IMG/VR virus record: IMGVR_UViG_3300006929_000149
Coordinates: 1 to 21,961 of that record
Strand: one strand, 5' to 3'
Length of the DNA stretch: 21,961 bases
From: a virus
Numbering within the stretch: position 1 is the stretch's first letter; the number at the start of each line of letters is the position of its first letter. The notes beneath the pieces are model-generated. The model was not told the DNA's origin and made no database searches. It worked only from the letters and a program-made list of their open reading frames with translations. Shown here in pieces: positions 4,943-17,649 of the stretch. Position numbers and translations under genes: made by a program.

Positions 4943-5614
4943 ATGGCTAGTTCAGGAACTACAAGTTTTAACCTGTCGATTGATGAGGTTATTGAAGAAT
5001 CTTACGAAAGATGCGGTGTAAGAACTAATTCTGGTAATGATATCAAATCTGCTAGAAGAAGTTTAAATCTTTTATTTTCTGAATGGGGTAACAGAGGTAT
5101 TAATCTTTGGAAAGTTAAATCAAAAACAGAAACTCTAGTAAACAATCAAGTTACTTATAATACTCCAAGTGATTGTAATGATGTGCTTGAAGCTGTGGTA
5201 ACAGTATCAGGTGGTAATCAACAAACTTTAACTAAAGTATCAAGATCTGAGTACATTGCTATTCCTAACAAGACTCAGGCGGGTACACCTTCTCAGTATT
5301 ATGTTGATAGACAAATAACTCCAACTATAAGTTTATATTTAGCTCCTGATACAAGCGCGGTAACTAATATATTCTATTATTATCTCGCGAGAATTGAAGA
5401 TGCAGGTGCTTACACCAATACAGCAGATATGCCTTTTAGATTTTTTCCGTGTATGGTATCTGGATTAGCTTTTTATTTATCTCAAAAAATTGCACCTGAC
5501 AGAATACAAGCTTTAAAACTTTTATATGAAGATGAACTAAAAAGAGCGTTAGAAGAAGACGGACAAAGAACATCTGTTTATATTTCACCTAATGTTTATT
5601 ACCCACAAGGATAA
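4943..5614 (+). CDS. Head-tail adaptor, P22 gp4-like tail accessory factor
   Basis: The protein is 223 residues. The N-terminus (FNLSIDEVIEESYERCGVR, then SARRSLNLLFSEWGNRGINLW) is the characteristic start of a family of podovirus adaptor proteins related to P22 gp4, which docks as a ring under the portal and closes the packaged head. The rest is mixed beta, with a helical C-terminal region (KIAPDRIQALKLLYEDELKR). It opens a run of three connector-type genes. Start ATG follows AAGGAT. Family membership is inferred from recalled sequence patterns. Confidence 0.75.
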   Translation: MASSGTTSFNLSIDEVIEESYERCGVRTNSGNDIKSARRSLNLLFSEWGNRGINLWKVKSKTETLVNNQVTYNTPSDCNDVLEAVVTVSGGNQQTLTKVSRSEYIAIPNKTQAGTPSQYYVDRQITPTISLYLAPDTSAVTNIFYYYLARIEDAGAYTNTADMPFRFFPCMVSGLAFYLSQKIAPDRIQALKLLYEDELKRALEEDGQRTSVYISPNVYYPQG

Positions 5615-5616
5615 TT

Positions 5617-5961
5617 ATGGCATACGCAAGAGGAAAATTCGCAAAGTCAATATCTGACAGATCAGGACAAGAATTTCCATATAGAGAAATGGTTAAAGAA
5701 TGGAATGGTTCATTAGTACATATATCAGAATTTGAAAAAAAACATCCTCAACTAGATCCAAAACCACACAGAGCAGATCCTGTAGCATTATACAATTCTA
5801 GACCACAAAGAGCTGCACCTGTTGTAGTTTATCTTGATCCTGCTCTTTGGCCAGGACAATTTACATCTGATGGTATGCGACCATCAACAGATGCTAATGA
5901 TGAAAATAACAAAAGACGGTTACAGTCAACTATAGGAAGTGTTACAATAAATATATCATGA
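5617..5961 (+). CDS. Conserved connector-region protein
   Basis: This 114-residue protein begins MAYARGKFAKSISDRSGQEF, followed by KEWNGSLVHISEFEKKHPQL and a Pro-rich segment (DPVALYNSRPQRAAP). The pattern DRSGxxxPYxxMxKEWNG...HPQ is recurrent next to gp4-like adaptors in marine and T7-like phages. It has no cysteines, whereas I recall relatives carrying cysteine pairs at the DRSG and LVH positions, so a zinc-ribbon-derived fold is possible. It probably helps join head and tail. It overlaps the next gene by 4 bases (ATGA). Confidence 0.65.
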   Translation: MAYARGKFAKSISDRSGQEFPYREMVKEWNGSLVHISEFEKKHPQLDPKPHRADPVALYNSRPQRAAPVVVYLDPALWPGQFTSDGMRPSTDANDENNKRRLQSTIGSVTINIS

Positions 5962-6647
5962 CGTTTGCTGAATTATTACAAAAGGTAAGAGATTACACAG
6001 AAGTTGGAAGTTCTGTTCTAAGTGATTCTATTTTACAATCAATGATTAGAGATGCTGAGCTTCGTATTTTTAGAGAAGTTGATGCAGATTATACAAGAGA
6101 ATATGCAACAGCAAATTTACAATTAAATTCACCTTATTTAATTTTACCTAGTGCTCCTGTAACTGCATCTACAAGAACTTCAATAATAGTTAGATCAATT
6201 TATGTATTAGATACTACTCAATCACCTTCAGAAAAAAAATATCTAGATAAAAGAGATACAAGTTTCATTTTTGAATTTAATTCTACACAAGCTACAGGAG
6301 TTCCAAAATATTATGCTAATTGGAAGGAAACCACACTAATTTTGGCTCCTACTCCAGATGCTCAGTATGAAGTCCAATTAAGTTACATATACTCCCCAGA
6401 TGCTTTAAGCTCTACTAATACAGAAACTTATGTGTCAAAAAATGCTCCTGATCTATTATTTAACGCAGTAATGGTACAAGCTTACGAATTTTTAAAAGGT
6501 CCTATGGATATGTACAAAATCTATTCCGACAAGTATAATGTATCTATACAAAGTTTTGCGTTAGAGCAAATGGGCAGAAGACGTAGAGACGAGTACACGG
6601 ATGGGGTGCCAAGGGTTAAAATACCTTCACCTTCACCGAATAATTAA
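5958..6647 (+). CDS. Phage adaptor / tail-connector protein
   Basis: The product is 229 residues starting MTFAELLQKVRDYTEVGSS with SILQSMIRDAELRIFREVDAD. This helical N-terminus followed by a beta region (YLILPSAPV, SIYVLD, KYYANWKETTLILAPTPD, YEVQLSYIYSPDAL) and a helical C-terminus is typical of podovirus adaptor proteins such as those of SU10-like and T7 gp11-like phages. The basic end (MGRRRRDEYTDG) may contact DNA or a partner. It is coupled to the previous gene. The exact equivalent (adaptor versus nozzle) cannot be settled from sequence reading. Confidence 0.65.
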   Translation: MTFAELLQKVRDYTEVGSSVLSDSILQSMIRDAELRIFREVDADYTREYATANLQLNSPYLILPSAPVTASTRTSIIVRSIYVLDTTQSPSEKKYLDKRDTSFIFEFNSTQATGVPKYYANWKETTLILAPTPDAQYEVQLSYIYSPDALSSTNTETYVSKNAPDLLFNAVMVQAYEFLKGPMDMYKIYSDKYNVSIQSFALEQMGRRRRDEYTDGVPRVKIPSPSPNN

Positions 6648-9849: not shown

Positions 9850-10851
9850 ATGAGAGACCATAAAATAAATGTTCTCCAAGGTGGCAGTGGAGGAAAAGGT
9901 TTAAAAAAAAATAAATCAAGAGGAAAATCTTTTGGTTACCAAATTTTAGGATTTGGATCTGGCGGTGGTGGCTTAACACCAAATCCATTTACAGCAGATT
10001 ACTTAATGGTTGCTGGAGGCGGATCAGGAAGAGGTCAAATCGGCGGAGGAGGCGGCGCAGGAGGATTACTATATTCATATTGTAATTCGTGTGCAGCTGG
10101 ATTAGCTTTGGACGCAGGCGTTTATGATATTACAATTGGAGGCGGTGGTTCAGCAGGATTAGGATCTTGCACAACAATTATTACACAACCTGGCGCACTT
10201 GAACCACTTTCTAAAACAGCGACTAGAGGAGGATTTGGACCTGGACCTTCTCCTACTTCTCCAGGAGGATCTGGATCAGGTGGAGGACACAATAGTCCTG
10301 GAGGTTCTGGAAATACTCCCCCTGTGGCTGCGCCATTGGGTGGCCCTCAAGGAAATAATGGTGGCGGAGGTGCTGGAGGTTATGCGGCATCCGGCGGTGG
10401 AGGCCGAGGAGGAGCAGGCACAAGTTCTAATCCTTCAAACCCAGTTCCAGCAGGTGGTCCTGGTGGAGATGGTGGTGTCGGTATATCAAATTCAATTTCA
10501 GGTTCATCTTTAGCTTACGCTGGAGGAGGCGGAGGTGGAGCTTATAATCCAGGAGCTGCAGGAGGAGCGTCTCCTTGTGGAACTGGTGGAGCAGGAGTTC
10601 CAGGCACAGGACCAGGAAATGCAGGCCCATCCAACAATGGAACAACCAATAGAGGTGGTGGTGGCGGAGGAAATGGTGAATCTGCACCTACAAGTGCTCC
10701 TAAAGTTGGAAGTGGCGGATCTGGTGTAGTAATTTTAAGATATCCAAATTCTATTAGTGCCACTATTGCACCTTGTACTAATACTATTGCGTGTGCACCA
10801 GGAAGTACAAAAATAGCAACATTTACAGTAAGCGGAACTTTCGAAATTTAG
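9850..10851 (+). CDS. Glycine-rich tail adhesin (receptor-binding protein)
   Basis: The protein is 333 residues. The N-terminus contains GGSGGKGLKKNKSRGKSFGY and QILGFGSGGG, which I recognise as a conserved attachment segment of marine-phage tail proteins. From residue 50 (ADYLMVAGGGSGRG) it is dominated by polyglycine runs alternating with short beta segments, ending GSGVVILRYP and a short C-terminal domain. Similar Gly-rich domains in T4-like gp38 adhesins pack as polyglycine helices that display variable receptor-binding loops. Cysteines occur in pairs (YCNSC; GSCT; PCGT; PCTNTIACAPG). It is probably exposed at the distal tail and determines host range. Confidence 0.75.
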   Translation: MRDHKINVLQGGSGGKGLKKNKSRGKSFGYQILGFGSGGGGLTPNPFTADYLMVAGGGSGRGQIGGGGGAGGLLYSYCNSCAAGLALDAGVYDITIGGGGSAGLGSCTTIITQPGALEPLSKTATRGGFGPGPSPTSPGGSGSGGGHNSPGGSGNTPPVAAPLGGPQGNNGGGGAGGYAASGGGGRGGAGTSSNPSNPVPAGGPGGDGGVGISNSISGSSLAYAGGGGGGAYNPGAAGGASPCGTGGAGVPGTGPGNAGPSNNGTTNRGGGGGGNGESAPTSAPKVGSGGSGVVILRYPNSISATIAPCTNTIACAPGSTKIATFTVSGTFEI

Positions 10852-10858
10852 TCCTTCA

Positions 10859-10886
10859 TTGACAATTTTTTACCTAATGTTATATC
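10859..10886 (+). promoter_or_regulatory. Sigma70-type promoter before the oxygenase cluster
   Basis: A perfect -35 TTGACA (10859-10864) is separated by 16 bases from TATATC (10881-10886), and TGT directly precedes the -10 to give an extended -10 motif. The start would fall near 10893, only about 10 bases before the first oxygenase ATG at 10903. Confidence 0.65.
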
Positions 10887-10902
10887 TTTAATTTTAAGAT
10901 AT

Positions 10903-11541
10903 ATGAATTTAAAAAATTATTTTTGGTATTTTCAATCAGCTTTACCTTCTCGTATTTGTGATGACATTGTAAAATATGGACATCAATTAAAAGATCAAAC
11001 AGCTTTGACAGGTGGGTTAGGTGACGATCCAAAAAAATTGAATAAAAAACAAATAAAAGATTTAAAAAAGAAAAGAAATTCAAATATAGTTTGGATGGAA
11101 GACCAATGGATTTATAAAGAAATTCAACCTTACATAAATGAGGCAAATAGAAATGCAGGTTGGAATTTTCAATGGGATTGGTCTGAAACATGTCAGTTTA
11201 CAAAATACGAAAAAGGTCAATATTATGACTGGCATTGCGATAGTTGGGATGAGCCATATTTATATCCTAATGATCCACAAAATCCAAAAAACAATAAAGT
11301 AAGAAAACTATCCGTTACAGTTAGTTTATCTGATCCAAAAGAATATAAAGGTGGAGAATTAGAATTTGATTTTAGAAATAAAGATCCACATAAAAAAAAG
11401 CAAATTGTTAAATGCAAAGAAATATTACCTAAAGGTTCTTTGGTTGTATTTCCTTCTTTTGTATGGCATAGAGTGTGTCCTGTTAAAAGTGGAGAAAGAA
11501 ACAGTTTAGTTATATGGAGTTTGGGATGGCCATTCAAGTAA
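10903..11541 (+). CDS. 2-oxoglutarate/Fe(II) dioxygenase, PKHD prolyl-hydroxylase-like
   Basis: This 212-residue protein carries the double-stranded beta-helix signature of 2-oxoglutarate oxygenases: YYDWHCDSWDE (iron ligands His111 and Asp113), RKLSVTVSLS, YKGGELEF, FPSFVWHRV (third ligand His189) and ERNSLVIW (Arg199 for 2-oxoglutarate). This order is characteristic of the PKHD/YbiX-like prolyl hydroxylase branch. The enzyme would couple 2-oxoglutarate decarboxylation to hydroxylation of an unknown substrate. The ATG has no clear ribosome binding site and lies about 10 bases after a predicted transcription start. It is first of four oxygenase genes; all key residues are intact. Confidence 0.9.
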   Translation: MNLKNYFWYFQSALPSRICDDIVKYGHQLKDQTALTGGLGDDPKKLNKKQIKDLKKKRNSNIVWMEDQWIYKEIQPYINEANRNAGWNFQWDWSETCQFTKYEKGQYYDWHCDSWDEPYLYPNDPQNPKNNKVRKLSVTVSLSDPKEYKGGELEFDFRNKDPHKKKQIVKCKEILPKGSLVVFPSFVWHRVCPVKSGERNSLVIWSLGWPFK

Positions 11542-12002
11542 TAGATAATTTTTTAGAAAAAGATAAATTTAATGATATTAAAAATATTATTTTAGGAAGT
11601 AATTTTCCTTGGTATTTTAATGATTTTATGACCAGAGATCCTGACAATAAATTTTATTTTACACATACCTTTTATAGAGAACCTGGTATTGTTAGTGACT
11701 GGTTTAACATGTGGCTTCCGATAATTAGAAAATTAGAATGTAAAAGTATTATAAGGATAAAAGCAAATAACTATTGTCCAGTTCATAAAAAAGAAAAAAA
11801 TGAATATCATAGCGATTACCCTTTCAAACATAAAGGGTGTTTGTTCTATATAAATAATAACAATGGCCCTACTTATTTTAAAGGTAAAACAGTTGAGGCA
11901 AAAGCAAACAGAGCAGTATTATTTGATCCAAGTGTTCCTCATGCAAGTAGTTTATGTGATAATCGTAAAAGAAGAGTTACCGTAAATTTTAATTATTTTT
12001 AA
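11526..12002 (+). CDS. Second 2-oxoglutarate/Fe(II) dioxygenase-like protein
   Basis: The preferred start is ATG at 11526 (MAIQVIDNFLEK, 158 residues) because GGAG at 11515-11518 is correctly spaced for it. An in-frame ATG at 11514 would overlap that signal. It overlaps the first oxygenase by 16 bases. The catalytic set is NEYHSDYPF (His95, Asp97), VPHASSL (His139) and KRRVTVNF (Arg149/150). The protein is short and divergent from its upstream neighbour, so it is not a recent tandem duplicate. An N-terminal 'IDNFLEKDKFNDIK' helix is typical of phage oxygenases of this type. Its substrate is unknown. Confidence 0.8.
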   Translation: MAIQVIDNFLEKDKFNDIKNIILGSNFPWYFNDFMTRDPDNKFYFTHTFYREPGIVSDWFNMWLPIIRKLECKSIIRIKANNYCPVHKKEKNEYHSDYPFKHKGCLFYINNNNGPTYFKGKTVEAKANRAVLFDPSVPHASSLCDNRKRRVTVNFNYF

Positions 12003-12007
12003 CAAGC

Positions 12008-12700
12008 ATGAAAAATAAAAAACAAAAGATTAAAAGTTATCCGAAAAAACTAAGATTAGAACATTATTTTGCAACACCTATCTGGTCTGCTGAGGAACCT
12101 TGTTTTGTAGATTCATTAAACAAAGCTTCTGATTCTTATATTGAAGAATCAAAAAAAATTTTAAAACCTCAAATTGATAAAAGAAATAAAAAATTTGGTA
12201 ACAAAGGAGATGCTGGTAATGTTTTTCACTCAAAAAGTTTAATTAATGATCCTAATTTTTTTGAATTACAAAATTACGCTGGTGCAACTTCGCATAATCT
12301 TTTAAATGAGATGGGTTTTGATTTAACAAATTATAAAGTTTTTATAACAGAGTTATGGGTGCAAGAGTTTGCGAAAAAAGGGAGTGGCTATCATTCTTTA
12401 CATACTCATTGGAATGGACACATATCTGGTTTTTATTTTTTAAAATGCAGTGAGAGAACTTCTCACCCTGTTTTTGAGGATCCAAGACCAGGTAATATTA
12501 TGAATCTTTTACCTGAAAAAGATAAAAAAAATGTTACATTTGCAACCTCACAAATTGTTTTTAAAATCAAACCAGGCACTATGATATTTTTTCCATCATA
12601 TCTACCCCACCAATATATAGTTGATATAGGATATGAACCGTTTAGGTTTATACATTTCAACTGTCAAGCCATACCTAAAGGAGTATTAAATGTCGTTTAA
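12008..12700 (+). CDS. Third putative 2-oxoglutarate/Fe(II) oxygenase (TIGR02466-like), HxH variant
   Basis: The product is 230 residues. Around residues 117-146 the sequence reads LWVQEF...YHSLHTHWNGHISGFYFL. Later segments FEDPRPGN (156-163), KIKPGTMIFFPSYLPHQY (His201) and EPFRFIHFN (Arg213) follow the pattern of the TIGR02466 / 2OG-FeII_Oxy_5 family. The first ligand motif reads His132-Thr-His134, not the usual His-x-Asp, as I recall for this family. It starts 5 bases after the previous stop without a clear ribosome binding site and overlaps the next gene by 11 bases. Substrate and exact chemistry are unknown. Confidence 0.8.
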   Translation: MKNKKQKIKSYPKKLRLEHYFATPIWSAEEPCFVDSLNKASDSYIEESKKILKPQIDKRNKKFGNKGDAGNVFHSKSLINDPNFFELQNYAGATSHNLLNEMGFDLTNYKVFITELWVQEFAKKGSGYHSLHTHWNGHISGFYFLKCSERTSHPVFEDPRPGNIMNLLPEKDKKNVTFATSQIVFKIKPGTMIFFPSYLPHQYIVDIGYEPFRFIHFNCQAIPKGVLNVV

Positions 12701-13331
12701 AAAAAATAAATATACAGTATTAAAAAAAGCTATTTCATCTGAATTAGCAGAGTTTGTTTACAAATACTTTTTGAATAAAAGAAATGTAGCTAGAGTACTA
12801 TTTGATTCAAAATACATATCACCTTTTACAGAATATTTTGGTGTATGGAATGATAATCAAGTTCCAAATACATATTCTCATTATGCAGACATTGCTATGG
12901 AAACTTTATTACAACAAGTAAAACCTGTTATGGAAAAACACACGGGTTTAAAGTTAAGTGAAACATATTCTTATGCAAGAATATATAAAAATGGAGACGT
13001 ATTACATAGACATAAGGATAGATACTCTTGTGAAATATCTACTACACTGAATCTTGGTGGTGATACTTGGCCAATATATCTTGATCCTACAGGTAAAAAA
13101 GGTCATGCAGGTGTTAAAGTAGATTTAGAACCAGGAGATATGTTGATATATTCAGGTTGTGACCTTGAACATTGGAGAGAAGAATTTAAAGGTAAGCATT
13201 GTGGACAGGTGTTTTTACATTACAACAAAGCAAATTCAAAACAAGCTAAAGTAAATCATTTAGATAAAAGACCTTTATTAGGCTTACCTGCTTGGTTTAA
13301 GGGTACTAAGTTGACTAAGAATAAAAAGTAA
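12690..13331 (+). CDS. Fourth 2-oxoglutarate/Fe(II) oxygenase-like protein
   Basis: The protein is 213 residues, starting within the previous gene with AAAGGAG about 7 bases upstream. The motif YKNGDVLHRHKDRYSCEIST gives the iron ligands His108 and Asp110, and CDLEHWREEF gives His161. The usual Arg of the C-terminal 2-oxoglutarate site is not obvious: the corresponding strand reads HCGQVFLHYN. Proteins of this pattern are frequent in cyanophages and pelagiphages. The C-terminal 35 residues are Lys-rich. The function is presumably hydroxylation of a phage or host component. Confidence 0.75.
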   Translation: MSFKKNKYTVLKKAISSELAEFVYKYFLNKRNVARVLFDSKYISPFTEYFGVWNDNQVPNTYSHYADIAMETLLQQVKPVMEKHTGLKLSETYSYARIYKNGDVLHRHKDRYSCEISTTLNLGGDTWPIYLDPTGKKGHAGVKVDLEPGDMLIYSGCDLEHWREEFKGKHCGQVFLHYNKANSKQAKVNHLDKRPLLGLPAWFKGTKLTKNKK

Positions 13332-13366: not shown

Positions 13367-13855
13367 ATGGCACACTTTGCAGAATTAGATGAAAATAATA
13401 TTGTAAAAAGAGTTGTAGTTGTTGGTAATGATATACCTACAGCAGCAGGACCATTAGGAGAAAATGATATGCATGTTGATGGTGAAACATGGTGTAATAA
13501 ATTCTTTAAAGGTGGGACTTGGAAACAAACTTCTTATAATCATAAATTTAGAAAACAATATGCTGGATTAGGTTACGTCTACAATTCTGAACACGATATA
13601 TTTATTGAACAAAAACCCCATGCATCTTGGACATTGAATTCAGATGGTTGGCAAGCTCCAATAGCTTATCCAACAATTATAGACGATGGTGCTGATCCTA
13701 GTGTTTGGTCATATTCTATTTTATGGAATGAAACAAAATATCAAGCAGATAATAATACAGGTTGGGAAGCAAGAAAAACAAATGATGCTGCAGAAGGTGG
13801 CTACTCTGGAAAAACAGTCTACAATTGGAACGGCACAGCTTGGATTGCTGAATAA
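13367..13855 (+). CDS. Conserved cyanophage/pelagiphage virion-associated protein
   Basis: The product is 162 residues, beginning MAHFAELDENNIVKRVVVVG, with WKQTSYNHKFRKQYAGLGY, FIEQKPHASWTLN and W...APIAYP. This combination recurs in cyanomyoviruses and pelagiphages, where it is treated as a hypothetical structural protein. It is soluble, rich in Trp, Tyr and Asn, with a short C-terminal YNWNGTAWIAE strand. I know of no enzymatic role. It lies between the oxygenase cluster and the large tail hub gene, and probably belongs to the tail/adhesion block. Confidence 0.7.
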   Translation: MAHFAELDENNIVKRVVVVGNDIPTAAGPLGENDMHVDGETWCNKFFKGGTWKQTSYNHKFRKQYAGLGYVYNSEHDIFIEQKPHASWTLNSDGWQAPIAYPTIIDDGADPSVWSYSILWNETKYQADNNTGWEARKTNDAAEGGYSGKTVYNWNGTAWIAE

Positions 13856-13929: not shown

Positions 13930-15843
13930 ATGCCTTTAACAAAAGTACAATTTGCACCAGGATTTAATAAACAAGCGTCTGCTTCGGGGGCTGAAAACCA
14001 ATGGGTAGATGGTGACTTTGTTAGATTTAGATATTCAATGCCTGAAAAAATTGGTGGTTGGTCTGAAATTTTAGATAAACAGTTAATAGGTGCGGCAAGA
14101 GCTTCGCATAGTTGGACTGATTTAGACGGTAGAAGATATATTGCTTTTGGTACAAACAAAATTTTATATATATACGACGGTAATGATTATCATGACATTA
14201 CACCTTTTGATACTTCATTAGCTCAATCAGGATGTGATATAACTACATCTAGTGGATCTGATATCGTAACAATAACTTGTCCCTCAAGTCATGGTCTTGA
14301 GCCAGGTGACATTGTTACATTTGTAAACGCAGGATCATTCAATGCTGCACAAACAGGATATGTTGCTGCAGACTTCGATAATATTTTATTTGAAGTTCAG
14401 TTGGCACCGACGACTTCTACTTTTACAATTAAAATGCCTACTAATGAATCAGGTTCAGGCACCACGAACAACGGAACACTTGATTTAAAAGCTTATTTTA
14501 AAGTAGGTCCATTACAACAATCTTTTGGATATGGTTGGAGTACAGGTTTATGGGGTGCTTCTACATGGGGAACTGCAAGGACAACATCAAATGTAGTGCT
14601 TGATCCAGGATCATGGTCACTTGATAATTTTGGTCAAGTTTTAATTGCAACAATTAAAAATGGTGCAACTTTTTCCTGGAATCCAAGCGGTGGTTTAACT
14701 ACACGAGCAGCCGTAATATCTGGAGCTCCTACAAAATCTGTCATGACAATGGTTTCTGATAGAGACAGACACCTTATTATACTTGGAACAGAAACTACTA
14801 TTGGATCAAGTTCTACGCAAGATAAAATGTTTATTAGATTTTCAGATCAAGAATCTTTAACTGATTATACTGCTACATCAACAAACACAGCGGGTTCTTT
14901 TAGAATCGATAGTGGAACAAAAATAGTAGGAGCTGCAAAAGCAAAAGATTACATATTAATTTTAACTGACACCTCAGCATATTTAATGCAATTTGTAGGC
15001 CCACCATTTACATTTAGTATTAGACAAGTCGGATCAAACTGTGGGTGCGTAGGTCAGCACGCTATTGTTTATGCTAATGGTGCAGTTTATTGGATGTCAG
15101 ATTCAGGTGGATTTTTTGTTTTTGATGGAACTGTTAAATCATTAGGTTCGCTTGTAGAAGATTTTGTATTTCAAACAAATAATAATGCTCCAGGTTTTAA
15201 TTTTGCAAACGGCTCTGAGCTGACTTGTGGATCTCACAATAGTTTATTTTCTGAACTATCTTGGTTTTATGCTAGTGCAAGTTCTAATTTTGTAGATCGA
15301 GTAGTAACTTACAACTATGCTGAACAAACATGGACTACAGGAACCTTAGCAAGGACTACATATGAAGACAGTCGTATTTTTGCAGATCCAGTTGCAACTG
15401 AATTTACTACTAATCTTGCCCCAAACACACCAACAGTTCAAGGAGTATCAAACGGTGCTTCAAGAGTTTTTGAACATGAAAAAGGTACAAATGAAGTTTT
15501 AGCTAATGGCACAGTAAATGCTATTTCTTCATTTATCTTATCGGGAGATTTCGATTTAGATGCTCAGGGAGATGGAGAATTTTTTATTAAAGTGAGAAGA
15601 TTTATACCCGATTTTAAATATATAAATGGGAATGCAAAAGTTACTTTGGAGTTAAGAGACTATCCTGCTAATGTACAACAAGGTTCTCCTTTGGGGCCAT
15701 TTACAATTAATTCAACAACGGATAAAGTAGATACAAGAGCAAGAGCAAGATTAGCTGCTGTAAAAATAGAAAATGATAGTACAAATGAAAGTTGGAGATT
15801 TGGTCAATTTAGATTTGATATACAACCTGATGGAAGAAGATAA
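13930..15843 (+). CDS. Large tail hub/stopper protein, P22 gp10-like
   Basis: This is the longest complete gene in the window, 637 residues. The N-terminus MPLTKVQFAPGFNKQ, then WVDGDFVRFRYSMPEKIGGW and a HSWTDLDGRRYIAFGTNKILYI-type strand repeat, is typical of a family of marine podovirus proteins related to P22 gp10 (packaged-DNA stabilisation). Members form a beta-propeller-like ring under the gp4-like adaptor. Central segments (DRDRHLIILGTE, IRFSDQESLTDY, AVYWMSDSGGFFVFDG) fit propeller blades. There is no clear ribosome binding site. It probably closes the portal channel and carries fibres. Confidence 0.75.
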   Translation: MPLTKVQFAPGFNKQASASGAENQWVDGDFVRFRYSMPEKIGGWSEILDKQLIGAARASHSWTDLDGRRYIAFGTNKILYIYDGNDYHDITPFDTSLAQSGCDITTSSGSDIVTITCPSSHGLEPGDIVTFVNAGSFNAAQTGYVAADFDNILFEVQLAPTTSTFTIKMPTNESGSGTTNNGTLDLKAYFKVGPLQQSFGYGWSTGLWGASTWGTARTTSNVVLDPGSWSLDNFGQVLIATIKNGATFSWNPSGGLTTRAAVISGAPTKSVMTMVSDRDRHLIILGTETTIGSSSTQDKMFIRFSDQESLTDYTATSTNTAGSFRIDSGTKIVGAAKAKDYILILTDTSAYLMQFVGPPFTFSIRQVGSNCGCVGQHAIVYANGAVYWMSDSGGFFVFDGTVKSLGSLVEDFVFQTNNNAPGFNFANGSELTCGSHNSLFSELSWFYASASSNFVDRVVTYNYAEQTWTTGTLARTTYEDSRIFADPVATEFTTNLAPNTPTVQGVSNGASRVFEHEKGTNEVLANGTVNAISSFILSGDFDLDAQGDGEFFIKVRRFIPDFKYINGNAKVTLELRDYPANVQQGSPLGPFTINSTTDKVDTRARARLAAVKIENDSTNESWRFGQFRFDIQPDGRR

Positions 15844-16475: not shown

Positions 16476-16705
16476 TGACAGAAAAACAAAAAACAGTCAT
16501 AATTAATGGAGAAGAAGTACCAGTAGTACCAGCTAAGGCTGAGGAAGAAGTTCTTAATAAAAGAACTGGAAAAAAATATGATAGCAAAGCTCATTTTGAT
16601 TCTGATGTTGCTGATCCCAGTACTGATACTACTTTGGATGACTTACAAATTAACCAAAAAATAACAGTTGCATCTCTTGAAGTATTTGGTAAAACCAAAT
16701 CATAA
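16475..16705 (+). CDS. Small acidic phage protein (76 aa)
   Basis: The start overlaps the preceding stop by one base, and the stop overlaps the next ATG by one base (TAATG at both ends). The sequence MTEKQKTVIINGEEVPVVPA leads to a conserved core NKRTGKKYDSKAHFDSDV-like stretch, then DPSTDTTLDDLQINQKITV and ASLEVFGKTK. This core is common in small proteins of marine phages near tail genes. It is highly charged and probably partly disordered. Function is unknown. Confidence 0.7.
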   Translation: MTEKQKTVIINGEEVPVVPAKAEEEVLNKRTGKKYDSKAHFDSDVADPSTDTTLDDLQINQKITVASLEVFGKTKS

Positions 16706-17649
16706 TGCAACCTGCAGGTGGAACTGAATTACAATTAGCTTATTTAAAAAAATATGCGAATCAAGGCATACTTGATTCTGTTCAAATAACTACATCTATA
16801 CCAGAAAAAGAACCTTTAGATCCAATAAAGGCCAACATACTGTGGTTGAAAAATTCTTATGATCAACCAAATTTAGCACCTTGGTTTCAAAATAAAGAAA
16901 ACCATTCTAAATATGATTGGTATGTTTTTAATAGTCACTGGAGTTATGAAAAATATCGTATGTTTTTTAAAATACCCGAAGATAAGTGCACTGTTATAAA
17001 AAATGGAATTGATTATGAAGAATTAGAATTAAAAAAAGATTTTACCCCAAAGAAAAAATTAAAAATGTGTTACATCTCTACACCATGGAGAGGTTTAGAA
17101 GTAGCTTTAACAGCCATGGAATCTTTAGTAGATAGAGATCCAGATATCACTTTGGATGTTTATTCAAGCACAATTATCTATGGAAAGCAATTTAAAGACC
17201 ATAATGATAGTCAATATCAAGATTTATATCAAAAGGCAAAAGATTTACCTAATGTAAATTACATGGGCTATTGTGATCACAAAACTTTAATGGGTAAGCT
17301 TAAAGAATATGATGTTAACTGTTTTCCAAGTATTTGGGAAGAAACATTTTGTATATCAGCAATGGAATCACTTGCTGCAGGTCAGCTATTAATAACCACG
17401 GATCTCGGTGCATTATTTGAAACTTGTGCAGAGTTTCCTATTTATATTCCTTTCACACAGAACAAAGCAAAATTAGCACAACAGGTGGCAGAATGTTGTG
17501 TAGAAGCAAAAAAAATTTTACAAAATGATTTAACAAATGTATTTAAATTTCAACAAGAATATTATAAAAGATTTTATGATTGGCGTAACATTAGTAGAAA
17601 TTGGGAAGGTTTTTTAAAAGGGGTAATTCATGTCCAACGAAATAAATAA
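16705..17649 (+). CDS. Glycosyltransferase, GT-B fold, GT4-like
   Basis: The protein is 314 residues. It begins directly at the MQPAGGTELQLAYLK motif that binds near the acceptor/donor cleft, so the usual first beta strand is missing, although short versions like this occur in marine phages. The C-terminal donor domain is intact: ISTPWRGLE (Arg129), DVYSS, VNYMGYCDHKTLMGKL, VNCFPSIWEETFCISAMES with the E-x7-E pair (Glu213, Glu221), AAGQLLITTDLGAL. It would transfer a nucleotide-activated sugar to an unknown acceptor. It overlaps the next transferase by 20 bases. Confidence 0.85.
   Translation: MQPAGGTELQLAYLKKYANQGILDSVQITTSIPEKEPLDPIKANILWLKNSYDQPNLAPWFQNKENHSKYDWYVFNSHWSYEKYRMFFKIPEDKCTVIKNGIDYEELELKKDFTPKKKLKMCYISTPWRGLEVALTAMESLVDRDPDITLDVYSSTIIYGKQFKDHNDSQYQDLYQKAKDLPNVNYMGYCDHKTLMGKLKEYDVNCFPSIWEETFCISAMESLAAGQLLITTDLGALFETCAEFPIYIPFTQNKAKLAQQVAECCVEAKKILQNDLTNVFKFQQEYYKRFYDWRNISRNWEGFLKGVIHVQRNK

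Follow-up and report, generated by a model that had tools for sequence, protein, structure and literature searches.

2-Oxoglutarate (2OG)/Fe(II) oxygenases are among the most expanded of the unexplained genes of marine phages, where they are usually termed metabolic genes. Runs of such genes are already known, as in HTVC008M and S-SM1, and the consecutive sets of named phages comprise five oxygenases in HTVC008M, nine in both S-SM1 and S-RSM4, six in both Mosig and S-CAM8, and four in 023Pt_psg01. For S-SCSM1, a total of 24 oxygenase genes is on record (PMC9602691). Pelagiphage ferrochelatases are reported to lie always beside a 2OG oxygenase (PMC9599517), and ferrochelatase, defined as phrog2954, is reported to be enriched in seasonal viruses (PMC11561400). 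Among virus-encoded 2OG hydroxylases, PBCV-1 vCPH has been solved (5c5t), and mimivirus L230 provides a case in which a virus hydroxylates its own collagen-like protein (PMC9546862).

The window analyzed here is the whole of virus record IMGVR_UViG_3300006929_000149 (21,961 bases), from a marine virus of bacteria; at the DNA level it matches few named phages, all of them pelagiphages and mainly HTVC023P and HTVC033P. Four open reading frames, A to D, lie on the + strand exactly where the original prediction had placed them (Table 1), with a 28-nt overlap between A and B, a 5-nt gap between B and C, and an 11-nt overlap between C and D. The same prediction held four oxygenases in a row to be a much denser set than is usual in marine phages, a claim of exceptional density that is ruled out by the equal or longer runs (four to nine genes) of the six phages named above. 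HTVC023P, HTVC033P and 023Pt_psg01 share the A-C-D order and have Gly-rich proteins upstream; 023Pt_psg01 also carries a B-type gene, making four oxygenases in a row, but its B precedes A, whereas HTVC023P and HTVC033P have no B beside A-C-D. The Gly-rich proteins of HTVC033P are gp62 and gp64. In HTVC023P-type pelagiphages D is annotated as a 'putative ferrochelatase', and HTVC023P has a glycosyltransferase at a similar place. The Kyanoviridae phages HTVC008M, S-SM1, S-RSM4, Mosig and S-CAM8 likewise present five to nine consecutive oxygenases near a PF21722 domain, but with other members in another order, and these myoviruses carry many more oxygenases elsewhere. A separate feature of the window is a pair of + strand genes (4943–5614 and 5958–6647) that both match the SU10 adaptor PF24175 (9.6e-10 and 7.1e-21), so that this gene appears to be duplicated.

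Table 1. Features of the oxygenase locus in the window.
Feature	Position	Strand	Evidence and remarks
Gly-rich adhesin, 333 aa, 31% Gly, 8% Pro; proposed substrate	9850..10851	+	PF21722 Gly_rich_2 2e-10; phrog_2295 1e-26; 51 nt before A
A, 2OG/Fe(II) oxygenase, PKHD/P4H-like	10903..11541	+	PF13640 1.7e-17; phrog_61 6e-42; profile matches to 3dkq/PiuC and 5c5t
B, optional oxygenase	11514..12002	+	pLDDT 92; Foldseek and VIA-align matches to PHD/P4H; invariant ligands
C, PF13759-type oxygenase, HxH...H	12008..12700	+	PF13759 9.3e-14; TIGR02466 2.9e-16, just under cut-off; relatives 3bvc, 2rg4
D, oxygenase-fold protein	12690..13331	+	pLDDT 90; Foldseek P4H/PHD2 E 3.4e-9; VIA Z about 15; invariant ligands
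Small conserved protein phrog_7759	13367..13855	+	phrog_7759 2.5e-35; 35 nt after D
Virion structural protein phrog_3287	13930..15843	+	phrog_3287 3.7e-90; downstream in most cassette loci
Group 1 glycosyltransferase	16705..17649	+	PF00534 2.9e-12; HTVC023P has one at a like place

The four products are assigned as divergent members of the 2OG/Fe(II) oxygenase superfamily, A and C through Pfam, B and D through confident models that match PDB folds and through their predicted ligands. Their ligand motifs are as originally read and are conserved across homologues, so they are no chance occurrences. Pairwise global identity among A–D is 19–25%, and profile–profile comparison yields at best short, weak matches in which relatedness is barely detected; as had been proposed, the genes are therefore too different to be recent duplicates. 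The HxD/E...H metal triad occupies invariant columns in A, B and D, while C carries HxH...H like its family relatives. A, B and C each have an Arg (R199, R154 and R213, respectively) at the 2OG-binding position, 9–12 residues past the distal His; neither Arg nor Lys was found there in D. Specifically, A reads H111-C-D113...H189...R199; its PF13640 match passes the cut-off, and its profile matches include PKHD hydroxylases and the Chlorella-virus P4H 5c5t (6e-7). C reads H132-T-H134...H201...R213, and its PF13759 match also passes the cut-off. Since the solved relatives 3bvc and 2rg4 have the same HxxHxH pattern, the replacement of the usual carboxylate ligand by His seems to extend across the family of C, whose metal ligands are putative.

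B and D belong to families that PHROGs names 'DNA endonuclease V' (phrog_274) and 'ferrochelatase' (phrog_2954), respectively. Pfam returns only a sub-threshold PF13640 match for B (0.019) and no relevant match for D; at E values up to 1 there is no ferrochelatase match for D or for the phage proteins so labelled, and no endonuclease V match for B or its similarly labelled counterparts. The AlphaFold models of both proteins are confident, and Foldseek and VIA-align place them among prolyl hydroxylases and related oxygenases. The best fold match of D is a P. putida P4H structure that includes EF-Tu (E 3.4e-9, Z about 15), with the small-molecule enzymes SnoN, OkaE and EctD also among its matches, and B matches a Dictyostelium PHD (E 4.9e-7) and a bacterial 2OG oxygenase (Z up to 15.7). 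No relative of D emerged when its sequence was searched against PDB chains, its relatives being found by fold comparison alone. P. putida P4H (4iw3), PHD2 and Dictyostelium PHD share with B and D both the fold and the HxD...H ligands, but differ in sequence (about 10–17% identity) and from D in its missing Arg/Lys at the usual 2OG position. B reads H99-S-D101...H143...R154, and H99, D101, H143 and R154 are kept in 11 of 11 phage relatives, the majority of which carry the annotation DNA endonuclease V. Those of D (H108-K-D110...H161) are equally constant, H108, D110 and H161-W-R163 being kept in 11 of 11 phage relatives that are mostly annotated ferrochelatase.

On the missing Pfam matches, the oxygenase-fold models and the invariant HxD...H, the names ferrochelatase for D and DNA endonuclease V for B are rejected as not fitting. 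On its model, D appears to represent an oxygenase-fold family, not a heme enzyme; because it has no Arg/Lys at the usual spacing of 9–12 residues past the distal His, 2OG use by D is deduced from the fold, and the invariant R97 and R163 are candidate 2OG-binding residues. Given this missing residue in D and the HxH motif in C, the activity of both is putative. Assignment of two or more of the proteins to non-oxygenase families had been named in advance as a result that would count against the original prediction; the names that PHROGs gives to B and D nominally supply it, but lose their force since they misfit both fold and motifs. Moreover, the prolyl-hydroxylase-like models of B and D and their invariant HxD...H mean that the published pelagiphage "ferrochelatase plus oxygenase" pair looks like two oxygenases. 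The literature searched contained no earlier correction of the ferrochelatase label, although one may exist elsewhere, and the identity of D and B is new as far as we searched. Elsewhere in the window, the + strand gene at 1603–2250 bears the PHROGs name 'ferredoxin' (phrog_3704, 1.4e-74) without a ferredoxin domain in Pfam, and is possibly another mislabelled family.

Relatives of D are also present in varied bacterial contigs. By our count, D has an oxygenase of a different family as its immediate neighbor in about 10 of 31 cellular-looking contigs and in 15 of 17 phage-like ones, and some of the cellular relatives bear TPR repeats or a SEC-C motif, which hints at an old partnership in which D and a second oxygenase act on a protein substrate. 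The cellular relatives give very weak matches to the AlkB-like PF13532 (E 0.011–0.083). In unrelated bacterial contigs (L430:5493–6140, L420:5615–6364 and L435:5423–6319), D relatives adjoin a PF13640 oxygenase on the opposite strand.

Co-occurrence was assessed in 187 viral loci after removal of duplicates. In the loci anchored on C, A lies nearby in 31 of 32 and D in all 32; in those anchored on A, D lies nearby in 36 of 38 and C in 31 of the 38. Of the 120 loci that contain A and D, those found through B being left out, 113 also have C and 15 have B, at positions that vary from between A and C to between C and D or before A. These counts identify A-C-D as a unit and B as an optional member, an arrangement that is new as far as we searched, and exclude a fixed four-gene unit, which the original prediction had suggested checking for. 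When the downstream virion protein served as anchor instead, one to five oxygenases, of families that vary, lay just upstream of it in 18 of 32 loci, and the other 14 had none; the wider oxygenase set is modular. In one close relative of the window (L002:4853–5377), about 520 bp separate B and C, leaving room for a further small gene.

Upstream of the cassette, 90 of 118 loci have a neighbor with a Gly content of 20% or more, and in 100 of 110 the gene that follows the cassette encodes either the phrog_3287 virion protein or the phrog_7759 product. When loci were picked by the C-terminal domain of the adhesin, the oxygenases being disregarded, all 35 with enough downstream sequence carried an oxygenase cassette, a result that constitutes linkage within a lineage because these loci are related. 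The cassette starts 24–55 bp past the adhesin in 27 of the 35. The predicted placement of four oxygenases right after a Gly-rich adhesin is upheld, with a conserved close spacing. In the sample anchored on the virion protein (32 loci), the association between Gly-rich proteins and oxygenases was not significant (p=0.41). Within the window, the gap between adhesin and A contains a promoter-like TTGACA-N18-TATCTT (10859–10888, + strand), a consensus match only, which could supply the cassette with its own transcription start; terminator-like sites in the cassette region showed no excess over a shuffle background.

Across families, PF21722 and four oxygenase families were mapped in Kyanoviridae and related myovirus genomes. 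Among the matches listed, eight genomes have both PF21722 and an oxygenase cluster, and the two lie within 2 kb in five and within 5 kb in six of these, a count to be read with the cluster definition (at least four oxygenases, gaps up to 1.3 kb) having been set after looking and with the genomes sharing ancestry. Random rotation gives expectations of 0.45 within 2 kb and 0.76 within 5 kb, and 0 of 20,000 rotations reached the observed counts. S-SCSM1 is a clear exception, its oxygenase cluster lying 31 kb from the PF21722 domain. Twelve Kyanoviridae genomes contain 3 to 23 distinct oxygenase loci among the matches listed, many of them far from the adhesin domain, so adhesin modification cannot explain all of these enzymes. 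The tie of the cassette to a Gly-rich adhesin is, as far as we searched, new.

Collectively, these arrangements are consistent with a modular set of phage oxygenases that would hydroxylate the phage's own virion adhesins, the putative substrates, with Pro as the most likely target residue; we regard this reading as having about an even chance of being correct. Modification of virion proteins, one of the roles first suggested, is the one best backed by gene linkage, through the Gly-rich and virion-protein neighbors of the cassette, the adhesin-anchored loci and the Kyanoviridae genomes with both elements within 2 kb. The best fold matches of B and D also count for it, being protein prolyl hydroxylases, one of them solved with EF-Tu, as do the TPR or SEC-C additions of cellular D relatives and the precedent of mimivirus L230. 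The adhesins contain 6.5% Pro, in GPG, NPG and TPG contexts, and 1.9% Lys, which favors Pro over Lys as the target; the downstream virion protein contains 3.3% Pro. Gly-X-Y runs reach 5 at the longest in the window adhesin, with a median of 6 and a maximum of 10 over 90 adhesins, and such short runs rule out the adhesin as a collagen-like substrate. Membership in the collagen-hydroxylase kind is consequently not claimed, and the likeness to vCPH and to L230, which acts on mimiviral collagen, is an analogy in working only; here, moreover, several enzymes form a cassette.

In the proposed mechanism, the oxygenases would be made together with the late structural proteins during particle production and would use Fe(II) and 2OG. 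They would hydroxylate side chains of the Gly-rich adhesin, most likely Pro in the GPG, NPG and TPG contexts and possibly Asn, each enzyme presumably taking a different residue or step. Member swaps would then alter the surface modification and hence binding or stability. By analogy with L230, and as speculation, the group 1 glycosyltransferase downstream could act on a hydroxylated residue.

Linkage falls short of substrate proof, since oxygenases and adhesins could share a tail-fibre hotspot in which accessory genes gather without acting on one another. The shuffled oxygenase content, 0–5 genes at one place, and the non-significant Gly-rich association in the virion-protein-anchored sample fit such a hotspot, but A, C and D remain together and the cassette keeps its close distance from the adhesin, and we consider this explanation unlikely. 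A similarly low probability attaches to the literature's proposal (PMC9602691, PMC9599517, PMC11561400) that these are auxiliary metabolic genes, acting on host metabolites or shifting host 2OG during infection, in the published version as the partner of ferrochelatase. Small-molecule enzymes do occur among the fold matches of D; against this, the supposed ferrochelatase partner itself has an oxygenase fold, the cassette sits among virion genes beside an adhesin, and consumption of 2OG needs no set of divergent enzymes. Modification of host proteins (EF-Tu, ribosomal or surface proteins), with nearness to adhesins being incidental, is favored by the top fold match of D and by its relatives in bacterial contigs, often beside another oxygenase and at times with SEC-C or TPR, but it leaves the tie to the Gly-rich adhesin unexplained and is likewise improbable. 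A role in nucleic acid modification or repair, AlkB-like or endonuclease V-like, is very improbable: the family name of B, the very weak PF13532 matches of cellular D relatives and a very weak match between B and NMAD-1, an N6-methyladenine demethylase (E 0.028), are outweighed by the lack of an endonuclease match in Pfam, the prolyl hydroxylases heading the fold matches and the grouping with virion genes.

Returning to adhesin hydroxylation, a broader and more tentative proposal, which we judge somewhat less likely than not, is that two or more groups of marine phages possess a swappable 'coat-editing' cassette, in which oxygenases with different side-chain targets would lay a pattern of hydroxylations over Gly-rich tail adhesins, with glycosylation as a possible later step, and of which the pelagiphage 'ferrochelatase' would be one oxygenase and not a heme gene. 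The heme story is itself called into question, as phrog_2954 of PMC11561400 and the 'ferrochelatase' partner of PMC9599517 appear to be oxygenase-fold proteins; oxygenases would in that case have entered the counts under two different names. The 'DNA endonuclease V' (phrog_274) of cyanophages appears to be a like case. Through its close link to a multi-oxygenase cassette, the Gly-rich adhesin becomes a candidate substrate open to testing in cultured phages such as HTVC033P.
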